Source: a virus. From it: a stretch of 20,720 nucleotides of DNA. The translations under genes and the position numbers were made by a program. Below the pieces are notes generated by a model. The model was not told where the DNA came from and searched no databases. It saw nothing but the letters and a program-made list of their open reading frames with translations. Positions 18,642 to 19,936 of the stretch are shown in pieces (position 1 is the stretch's first letter; each line of letters opens with the position of its first letter). The DNA is taken from positions 1 through 20,720 of the IMG/VR virus record IMGVR_UViG_3300010370_005091. One strand, given 5' to 3'.

Positions 18642-18995
18642 TTAACCCTCTAAATGATCAAAGTAGTCGTCTGCTACTGAAAAACTAGATCCACACCCGC
18701 AAGAAGTTTCTGCATTAGGATTTTTAATTCTAAAGCTTTCGCCATTTAGATCATCTTTAAAATCTATCTCTGCTCCTTGCAGATATTGCATACTCATTGC
18801 ATCTACTAATACTTTAAAATTGCCTAATGGTATTTCGAAATCGTCTTCATTTTGGTCTTCGTCAAACGTGAATCCGTATTGCATTCCACTGCACCCTCCA
18901 CCTTGTACAAAAGTTCTTAAAGATAATTTCGGATTATTTTCTTCTTCTAATAACGATAAAATTTTAATTTTCGCGTTTTCGCTAATGGTTATCAT
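18642..18995 (-). CDS. erpA: A-type iron-sulfur cluster carrier, ErpA/IscA/HesB family
   Basis: A 117-residue protein of normal family length with a ~10-residue acidic/aromatic C-terminal extension. The three cluster-binding cysteines are present: C35 in GGGCSG and C99 and C101 in [10 protein letters not shown]. The sequence between them ([48 protein letters not shown]) resembles bacterial ErpA more than IscA or SufA, judged by memory of those sequences. Family members take Fe-S clusters from a scaffold such as IscU or SufB and pass them to apo-proteins in the cytoplasm. Here it is the first gene of the tail-fibre block, ends 1 nt before the giant gene, and sits behind a perfect late promoter (TATAAATA, 21 nt upstream), with AAAGGG as ribosome-binding site. 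No scaffold or desulfurase gene is nearby, so it would draw on host clusters. Its target, host enzyme or phage protein, is unknown. Confidence 0.93.
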
Positions 18996-19056: not shown

Positions 19057-19344
19057 ATGTATTTAAAAGAAGAAAAGACCTATAAAAATTTTACTAGGAC
19101 TAGCAAATTAGGAAATGTTCATCATTATACTAGGGTAGAAATTATAGCATTTTTTAGATGCGATAGTTGCTTTATGATTTTTACCCGACCTAGGCAACGT
19201 ATGAGTCCAAAAAGATTAAACAACAACTATTTCCATTGTTGTGAAAACTGTGATGCTAAACGTTTTGCACAACGTAAAGGTGTAGAACGAAGGAATATAT
19301 GGGATATGCCTGTAAGCAGTGAATTAGATATTAGTAGACTGTAA
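19057..19344 (+). CDS. Small CxxC...CxxC zinc-finger-like protein of unknown function
   Basis: A 95-residue basic protein. It has two CxxC pairs, C35-x2-C38 (FFRCDSCFMIF) and C62-x2-C65 (HCCENCDAK), separated by 23 residues, which suits a single structural zinc site (zinc ribbon or treble clef). Between and after them are basic runs (TRPRQRMSPKRLNN, KRFAQRKGVERR), so nucleic-acid binding is plausible. It ends with WDMPVSSELDISRL. I recognise the general pattern as a small conserved protein of T4-like phages but cannot name it; an HNH nuclease is not supported because no HNH core is visible. The frame extends upstream to 18820, but that part is antisense to the ErpA gene, and ATG 19057 follows the intergenic region. 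No Shine-Dalgarno sequence is evident. The 3' end overlaps the convergent SOD gene by 21 nt. Confidence 0.78.
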   Translation: MYLKEEKTYKNFTRTSKLGNVHHYTRVEIIAFFRCDSCFMIFTRPRQRMSPKRLNNNYFHCCENCDAKRFAQRKGVERRNIWDMPVSSELDISRL

Positions 19345-19890
19345 TCTTGCACCTATTACCACCCAGTTAATAATTTTCCACTGGTTTTCTAAATACTTTT
19401 TCTTGTCCCATTTGTAATCTAGAGCCCAAGCGTGTTCCCACCAGTCTACCAATAAAACTATGTCTTGCCTAATTTGATGGTTAGTGATAGTTTTAATTTC
19501 GCCGTCTTTGGCTAGATAAACCCAACCGCTTCCTTGTATACCCATAGCAACTTCTTGAAATTTATTTTTAAATGAGTCAAAAGATTTAAAATGTTCTACA
19601 ATAAAATCTAAAGCAGGCCCGTTTGGTTCATTGCTGATAACCGTTCTTTGGAATTGAGGAAATAATAAATTGTGTAAAAATGCACCTGCTTCATTAAAGT
19701 CTAGGTCTCCTTCTCGTTTATTGTAGCGATCAACATAGGTCTGTGCTAGTTTATTATAATGATAGAATATGGCATCTTCACTTAGAACAGGTTCTAAGTC
19801 GGTTTTACTATAAGGTAAAGGTAATAATTCTAGTTCCTTGCTAGGTGTATTTTCGTTTAATATAACGTTTTTTATAAAATTATAGGGCAT
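19324..19890 (-). CDS. Iron/manganese-family superoxide dismutase
   Basis: A 188-residue protein of usual length for Fe/Mn SODs, which convert superoxide to oxygen and hydrogen peroxide in the cytoplasm. The N-terminal helical domain has LPLPYSKTDLEPVLS and FYHYNKLAQTYVDRYN; the C-terminal domain has GSGWVYLAKDG and VDWWEHAWALDY. All four metal ligands can be placed: H44, H73, D149 and H153. The gateway Tyr is Y52. G69 (four before H73) and Q139 (in ITNHQI) match the Mn-type arrangement of the outer-sphere glutamine rather than the Fe-type, so manganese or cambialistic use is inferred. Oddities: the usual His pair before QTYV is Leu48-Ala49, and the Tyr-Tyr after WEHA is Trp-Ala. No signal peptide is seen. 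It starts at ATG 19890 without a Shine-Dalgarno sequence, diverges from the EF-hand gene, and overlaps the zinc-finger gene at the 3' end. Confidence 0.93.
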   Translation of the reverse strand: MPYNFIKNVILNENTPSKELELLPLPYSKTDLEPVLSEDAIFYHYNKLAQTYVDRYNKREGDLDFNEAGAFLHNLLFPQFQRTVISNEPNGPALDFIVEHFKSFDSFKNKFQEVAMGIQGSGWVYLAKDGEIKTITNHQIRQDIVLLVDWWEHAWALDYKWDKKKYLENQWKIINWVVIGARLQSTNI

Positions 19891-19903
19891 AACATTATTT
19901 AAC

Positions 19904-19911
19904 TATAAATA
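19904..19911 (+). promoter_or_regulatory. Perfect T4-type late promoter for the EF-hand gene
   Basis: TATAAATA on the plus strand, with its last A 19 nt before the ATG at 19930. The predicted transcript starts near 19917, at the edge of the AAGGAG ribosome-binding site, so the leader would be very short, about 12 nt. Confidence 0.75.
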
Positions 19912-19936
19912 TACCACAAGGAGATTAGTATGGAAA
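19908..19936 (-). promoter_or_regulatory. Candidate sigma70-like promoter for the SOD gene
   Basis: On the minus strand TTTCCA (19936-19931, four of six matches to TTGACA) is separated by exactly 17 nt from TATATT (19913-19908, five of six to TATAAT). The start would be near 19901, giving a leader of about 11 nt. It overlaps the late promoter and start codon of the divergent EF-hand gene, so the two would interfere. Confidence 0.35.
19918..19923 (+). promoter_or_regulatory. Strong ribosome-binding site of the EF-hand gene
   Basis: AAGGAG stands 6 nt before the ATG at 19930. It is the clearest Shine-Dalgarno sequence in the window and fixes this start. Confidence 0.85.

Follow-up and report, generated by a model that had tools for sequence, protein, structure and literature searches.

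In the published classification, the Fe/Mn superoxide dismutases (SodFM) fall into five subfamilies (PMC10172142). SodFM3/4 typically have a His as C-terminal water-coordinating residue, and of 13 characterised enzymes with such a His, 9 prefer Fe; in SodFM4 the second His of the HXXXHH motif is lost, the first not being described as lost, and S. aureus SodM, in which the metal-preference position X(D-2) is Leu, is treated as cambialistic (PMC10172142). Proton relay through the pair His30-Tyr166 has been studied in detail in Fe/Mn SODs. In human MnSOD the two residues, which belong to different subunits, are joined by a low-barrier hydrogen bond, and kcat is ~30-fold lower in the H30Q mutant and likewise in Y166F (PMC8024262). 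The H30V substitution narrows and impairs substrate access; combining H30N with Y166F does no more damage than either change alone (PMC9208312). Viral SOD and viral IscU/SufA each figure already in lists of auxiliary genes (PMC12542629; PMC5332604); a limited literature search found no work on the phage SOD clade described here, no assay of its enzymes and no report of its pairing with Fe-S genes. A second described system to which this locus can be compared is the set of internal proteins of phage T4, in which the prohead protease gp21 cuts after L/I-X-E and IPIII is directed to the head by its ten N-terminal residues (PMC9026906).

A phage SodFM homologue and its active site

The window, i.e., the whole stretch of DNA analysed here (20,720 bases; IMG/VR virus record IMGVR_UViG_3300010370_005091), is a phage fragment without a gp21-family protease gene, whose features are collected in Table 1. 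The plus strand across 19324-19890 is riddled with stops, and the SOD reading frame lies on the minus strand. The initial annotation had identified this ORF as a phage-borne superoxide dismutase, an identity borne out by matches to both Pfam domains (Sod_Fe_C, 7e-22; Sod_Fe_N, 1.8e-9; each above its curated cut-off) and by the structure prediction that had been proposed as a check. The AlphaFold2 model, a monomer computed from an alignment of 37 phage homologues, reaches a pLDDT of 85 with a predicted SodFM fold, and every listed PDB match found with Foldseek is an Fe/Mn SOD, with a TM of about 0.8. By its domains and predicted fold, the ORF is a true homologue of the Fe/Mn superoxide dismutases (SodFM). 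A PHROG search with the window protein gave no match, and the copy of the PA5oct-like jumbo phage (QCG76142) is annotated as hypothetical; phage-clade SODs thus escape current phage annotation.

Table 1. Features of the window (positions in the 20,720-base record; phage counts refer to the aligned phage SODs)
Feature	Position	Strand	Evidence or remark
Tail/fibre-like ORF, 3171 aa	9125-18640	(-)	nearly half of contig
ErpA, A-type Fe-S cluster carrier	18642..18995	(-)	NF010147 153 bits, cut-off 117; Pfam Fe-S_biosyn
Cys-rich (CxxC) ORF, 95 aa	19057..19344	(+)	convergent with SOD, overlaps SOD 3' end by 21 nt
Phage SodFM-like superoxide dismutase, 188 aa	19324..19890	(-)	Pfam, AlphaFold2, Foldseek
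Trp155-Ala156 in place of Tyr162-Tyr163 (human Tyr165-Tyr166)	19423..19428	(-)	alignment
D149-W150-W151-E152-H153: Asp and His ligands, Glu dimer bridge	19432..19446	(-)	D, W158, E159, H160 in 321/321
Leu147, X(D-2), metal-preference position	19450..19452	(-)	phage alignment
His138, C-terminal water-coordinating residue	19477..19479	(-)	320/321 phage
Metal ligand His73	19672..19674	(-)	320/321 phage
Gly69, site of the N-terminal Gln in SodFM2	19684..19686	(-)	320/321 phage, one-residue register shift
Tyr52 (gateway Tyr34), kept	19735..19737	(-)	208/208 phage
Leu48-Ala49 in place of gateway His30, His31	19744..19749	(-)	alignment
Metal ligand His44 (E. coli SodB His26)	19759..19761	(-)	320/320 phage sequences
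N-terminal tail, residues 1-13 MPYNFIKNVILNE, ending L-N-E	19852..19890	(-)	predicted disordered, conserved
TTAAATA at -12 from SOD start	19896..19902	(-)	one mismatch to late-promoter-like ATAAATA
Small EF-hand-like protein gene	at 19930	(+)	divergent from SOD
UvdE UV-damage endonuclease, 3' part, contig edge	20245..20718	(-)	Pfam UvdE 7.8e-11; 71/85 first-round loci

All four metal ligands (H44, H73, D149, H153) are present, as first noticed, and the metal would be held by these residues, with the metal-bound solvent held by H138 and with Tyr52 (Tyr34) staying as gateway and proton donor. The initial annotation had further read Leu48-Ala49 at the His-His that normally precedes QTYV and Trp-Ala at the Tyr pair after WEHA. 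Both readings are confirmed by alignment without gaps: YHYGKHHQTYV of E. coli SodB pairs with YHYNKLAQTYV of the window SOD, by which His30 becomes Leu48 and His31 becomes Ala49, and WEHAYY pairs with WEHAWA without an indel. The possibility that an indel brings His to 48/49 was examined and is ruled out by the phmmer, HMMER-profile and MAFFT alignments, all of which are gap-free at this point. In the MAFFT alignment the helix of the second ligand and the loop of His138 are displaced by 1-2 columns, and residues there were read by motif.

The assignment of the outer-sphere residues had to be revised in part. The reading of Gly69 as an outer-sphere residue was right, but that of Gln139 was wrong, as column 139 varies (E/Q/A) and the invariant residue is its neighbour His138. 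N137-H138 is invariant among 37 aligned relatives, and His138 of the window SOD aligns with the His of the P. marinus SOD 2cw2 (GHD) and of the Haladaptatus SOD (NHQ). At X(D-2), 197 of 208 phage SODs have Leu and 11 have Ile, whereas cellular SODs have Thr, Gly or Ala. Since a C-terminal His is combined with a Leu at X(D-2), the residue found at that position in S. aureus SodM, an Fe-preferring or cambialistic enzyme would be a better prediction than the Mn-type enzyme that had been suggested; the cambialistic option put forward beside it thus stands as a prediction.

Relation to cellular enzymes and to the described subfamilies

To place these changes, viral contigs were scanned for relatives, of which there were hundreds; 321 phage sequences were aligned (208 of them non-redundant) and compared with 95 cellular SODs, also non-redundant, most of which came from 120 evenly drawn Pseudomonadota genomes. 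All 208 non-redundant phage SODs carry Leu at position 30, where 94/95 cellular SODs carry His, and Tyr163 is absent from 207/208 of the former and present in 95/95 of the latter, so that His30 and Tyr163 occur together in 94/95 cellular enzymes. Ordinary cellular SODs with the Leu-Ala/Trp-Ala pattern, which would have counted against the initial reading, were not found in this sample. The equivalent of His31 is missing in all but 2 of the 208 phage SODs, in which the motif reads HXXXLA/LY, and position 163 is variable, being mainly Ala but also V, S, T, F, N or Q. By alignment, then, the cross-dimer partners His30-Tyr163 (human His30-Tyr166) are both replaced in phage SODs, and the rebuilt gateway is a family trait common to the whole clade. 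Because the H30N/Y166F double mutant of human MnSOD is no worse than the single mutants (PMC9208312), the pair seems to act as a unit, of which joint loss is likelier than single loss. None of the 321 phage sequences shows a change at Glu159, Trp122, Trp158, the Asp ligand or the last His ligand, while Trp77 is replaced by Phe and Trp124 by Tyr, and the stretch between ligands 1 and 3 is ~25 residues shorter than in cellular SODs.

The phylogeny against bacterial SODs, also proposed at the outset, groups the phage SODs in one long-branch clade (SH-aLRT 100) that includes none of the 26 cellular representatives. Its members are found in large T4-like phages of both lakes and the sea, in numbers that reach the hundreds. 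Several of the search peptides contained DWWEHA or the N-terminal tail, a bias that does not extend to position 30, which none of them covers; moreover, the homologues of the cultured phages PA5oct and Vibrio phage 2.275.O, found by tblastn, likewise have Leu30. A search of viral contigs with the own patterns of the Vibrio 2.275.O SOD found no relatives. These data bear on the possibility that an ordinary host SOD was recently captured on a phage contig and diverged by drift. Ordinary SODs do occur in some phage-labelled records (MW462191, MT839568), as does canonical His30, but the single long-branch clade, its hundreds of relatives in viral contigs, its Leu30 throughout and the outcome of a search for the signature [VI]DWWEHA in 84,980 species genomes, which returned one SOD relative, and that on a phage-like contig from a Methylophilaceae bin, make recent capture highly improbable. 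Unannotated 'phage' records of Listeria, Staphylococcus, Enterococcus and Salmonella with 25-30% identity look like ordinary bacterial SODs and were excluded. The clade is phage-only within the sampling used and may be a sixth branch of the Fe/Mn SODs; it represents a real variant, widespread among phages, of an enzyme family already known.

The five subfamilies were compared with the phage SODs by their published features (PMC10172142), the tree being computed without SodFM4 sequences. With SodFM3 and SodFM4 the phage SODs have in common the fold, the four ligands, Tyr34, the C-terminal His and a Gly in place of the N-terminal Gln. They differ from both in also losing the Tyr partner, in being ~25 residues shorter and in having an N-terminal tail. 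The second His of HXXXHH is gone in SodFM4 as in the phage SODs, but the latter lack the first His too, and the C-terminal water-coordinating His found in 75% of SodFM4 members is present in 320/321 of them. SodFM3 combines HXXXHH with a C-terminal His, unlike the HXXXLA/LY of phage SODs; His138 stands in place of the C-terminal Gln of SodFM1 and SodFM5, and Gly69 in place of the N-terminal Gln of SodFM2. In the PDB, sequence and profile searches both match best to SodFM2 enzymes of Bacteroidales (8avl of B. fragilis, 1qnn of P. gingivalis), in which His31 is replaced by Leu; however, these retain His30 as well as the Tyr pair and the N-terminal Gln, all of which the window SOD lacks. The two cultured-phage enzymes are likewise shortened, of the C-terminal His type and, at the Tyr pair, Tyr-Met in PA5oct (42.5% identity to the window SOD) and Phe-Val in Vibrio 2.275.O (36% identity). 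By the features tested, the phage SOD does not clearly fit any of the five published subfamilies, the closest, by description, being SodFM4.

Gene neighbourhood, selection and proposed activity

In the window, the gene order past ErpA continues with tail genes, and a plus-strand ORF sits between SOD and ErpA, which are thus not in one operon. This Cys-rich ORF has no Pfam match; it is present in 80/85 first-round loci and is convergent with SOD in most loci of the UvdE group. In the full set of 322 loci, an A-type carrier is encoded in 187, UvdE in 93, IF-1 in 89, NrdB in 83, NrdA in 82, glutaredoxin in 76, a PTPS/QueD-like protein in 72 and IscU in 60. A carrier or IscU gene lies at most 3 genes downstream of SOD in 101 of 184 non-redundant loci with at least 1.5 kb of downstream sequence, Fe-S neighbours being missing near about 45% of phage SODs; where it is the very next gene, it is mostly on the same strand with a gap of at most 20 nt. 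PF01521 is encoded in 14/15 large SOD contigs. In other loci SOD lies inside an RNR operon with the layout NrdA-SOD-NrdB-Grx; a 364 kb contig (L063:3668-8776) has NrdA, SOD (ATGA overlap), an aldolase-like ORF, NrdB and glutaredoxin on the same strand. The IF-1 gene is directly upstream of SOD in 77 loci (L395 and relatives).

Whether this enzyme is a divergent active SOD tuned for other kinetics or a repurposed metal-binding fold had been left as two options at the start. The description as divergent, phage-borne and altered in the second sphere is supported by the clade and the residue pattern. A structural or regulatory protein without dismutase activity would accommodate the loss of His30, His31, Tyr162 and Tyr163, the changes of Trp77 to Phe and Trp124 to Tyr, the impairment of known single mutants (PMC8024262) and an occasional C-terminal fusion to an SGNH-like domain. 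It would not account for the invariance of Tyr34 and of the water-coordinating His, which are dispensable for mere metal binding, nor for the strong purifying selection on phage SODs, in which dN/dS is 0.02-0.06 in most computable pairs and 0.135 in one, and is considered unlikely. Because Tyr34 and the water-coordinating His are invariant, the phage SOD is quite likely an active enzyme; with the Glu bridge and Trp also kept and purifying selection acting, a tuned SOD is probably the better of the two readings.

How such an enzyme would work can be outlined from the residues. With the second gateway residue and the partner it meets across the dimer replaced jointly by Leu and mainly Ala, the gate would be hydrophobic; protons should be delivered more slowly, and product inhibition or dimer stability may be altered. 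Activity could be low, because H30Q and Y166F cause ~30-fold drops in kcat and H30V impairs access in the human enzyme. As Leu30 is invariant while position 163 wanders, the pattern suggests that the gate was selected rather than left to decay. Natural enzymes that keep the ligands, Tyr34 and the water-coordinating residue and lack both His30-Tyr166 partners would test whether the relay is needed for dismutation and how it can be replaced. Since the phage makes SOD together with Fe-S carriers (ErpA/IscA, IscU) or class Ia RNR, a protective function is proposed, the likely job being to shield Fe-S and di-iron enzymes, or to restore them, as superoxide climbs during infection. A phage-specific, shortened Fe/Mn SOD, Fe-dependent or cambialistic, that still dismutates superoxide and guards these enzymes is probably the best explanation of the locus. 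Two observations count against it: about 45% of phage SODs lie away from Fe-S neighbours, and in the window SOD and ErpA do not share an operon.

Two further arrangements are recorded. On the Methylophilaceae-binned phage-like contig (L085:4938-10342), a broken SOD of the phage family is followed by SufB, SufC, SufS and SufE-like genes and, by eye, glutaredoxin-like and SufT/DUF59-like ORFs, a near-complete Suf set on a putative phage in which some Suf frames look interrupted. In L029:2103-3116 and L047:1758-2771, SOD is C-terminally fused to an SGNH/GDSL-like domain (GDSIALG...GTND) that scores below the Pfam cut-off and whose AlphaFold2 model is poor (pLDDT 41).

The N-terminal tail and possible packaging in the virion

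The N-terminal tail of the window SOD is predicted to be disordered (pLDDT <50 for residues 1-15) yet is conserved, with M1, F5, I6, L11 and E13 invariant in 37 relatives. It differs by lineage (MYNFIKHITLNE|G, MTDIRQTLDLLE|A, MSYEFIKGFIAE|G and, in PA5oct, MNDSIKKYISIAE|A, the bar marking the putative cleavage point). The motif [LI]xE is present in the tails of 33/37 divergent representatives, against a mean of 11.3 and a maximum of 19 in 1000 shuffles, and the following P1' residue is A, G or S in 25 of these 33; in the complete protein sets of three SOD phages, only 3-5% of members have [LI]xE[AGS]. N-terminal [LIFM]NE alone was enriched at N-termini in two contigs, but the result was mixed and it was set aside as evidence. 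A gp21-family protease and gp23 are encoded in 11/14 further SOD records, PA5oct and Vibrio 2.275.O included, and also in three first-round contigs, and the gp23 propeptide of SOD-bearing phages retains L-x-E at the T4 processing site.

A tail carrying the gp21 motif, together with a late-promoter-like ATAAATA upstream, makes it plausible that SOD is a packaged internal protein: it would be made late, targeted to the prohead by its tail as a capsid-targeting propeptide, trimmed after L/I-x-E by a gp21-type protease, carried in the virion and ejected with the DNA. It would then act at the very start of infection or guard the packaged genome, a tentative step that would add to the protective enzyme favoured above. 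Like T4 IPI-IPIII, the phage SOD has a short N-terminal segment ending in L/I-x-E and a prohead protease of the same family in its phages; unlike them, its cargo is a cellular-type enzyme whose packaging is putative, and its tail has no counterpart among the other proteins searched. Indeed, no other protein with the window-type tail was found among all ORF starts of the loci, three large contigs included, which speaks against packaging, as does the absence of a tail from the Vibrio 2.275.O SOD. The PA5oct SOD has been detected by ESI-MS/MS, but the same holds for RNR and thymidylate synthase, and this flag is not virion-specific. If SOD is packaged, a virus would carry, and maybe inject, an antioxidant enzyme, and superoxide chemistry would be tied to Fe-S and nucleotide metabolism. 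The full combination, i.e., a phage-only sixth Fe/Mn SOD branch with a hydrophobic gateway that is packed into the capsid through a cleaved tail and ejected to shield Fe-S and RNR enzymes, is possible but slightly more doubtful than the packaging step taken by itself.

The T4 late promoter is TATAAATA, to which ATAAATA is close. ATAAATA lies upstream of SOD in 90/159 non-RNR loci, mostly at -12/-11, and within 40 nt upstream of 8% of other genes, which fits late expression of a packaged protein; SODs of the RNR group have no such motif of their own (0/50), which argues against it. Upstream of the divergent EF-hand-like gene of the window, a perfect TATAAATA is present on the plus strand at 19904-19911, and its back-to-back arrangement with the TTAAATA of SOD looks like a two-way late promoter.
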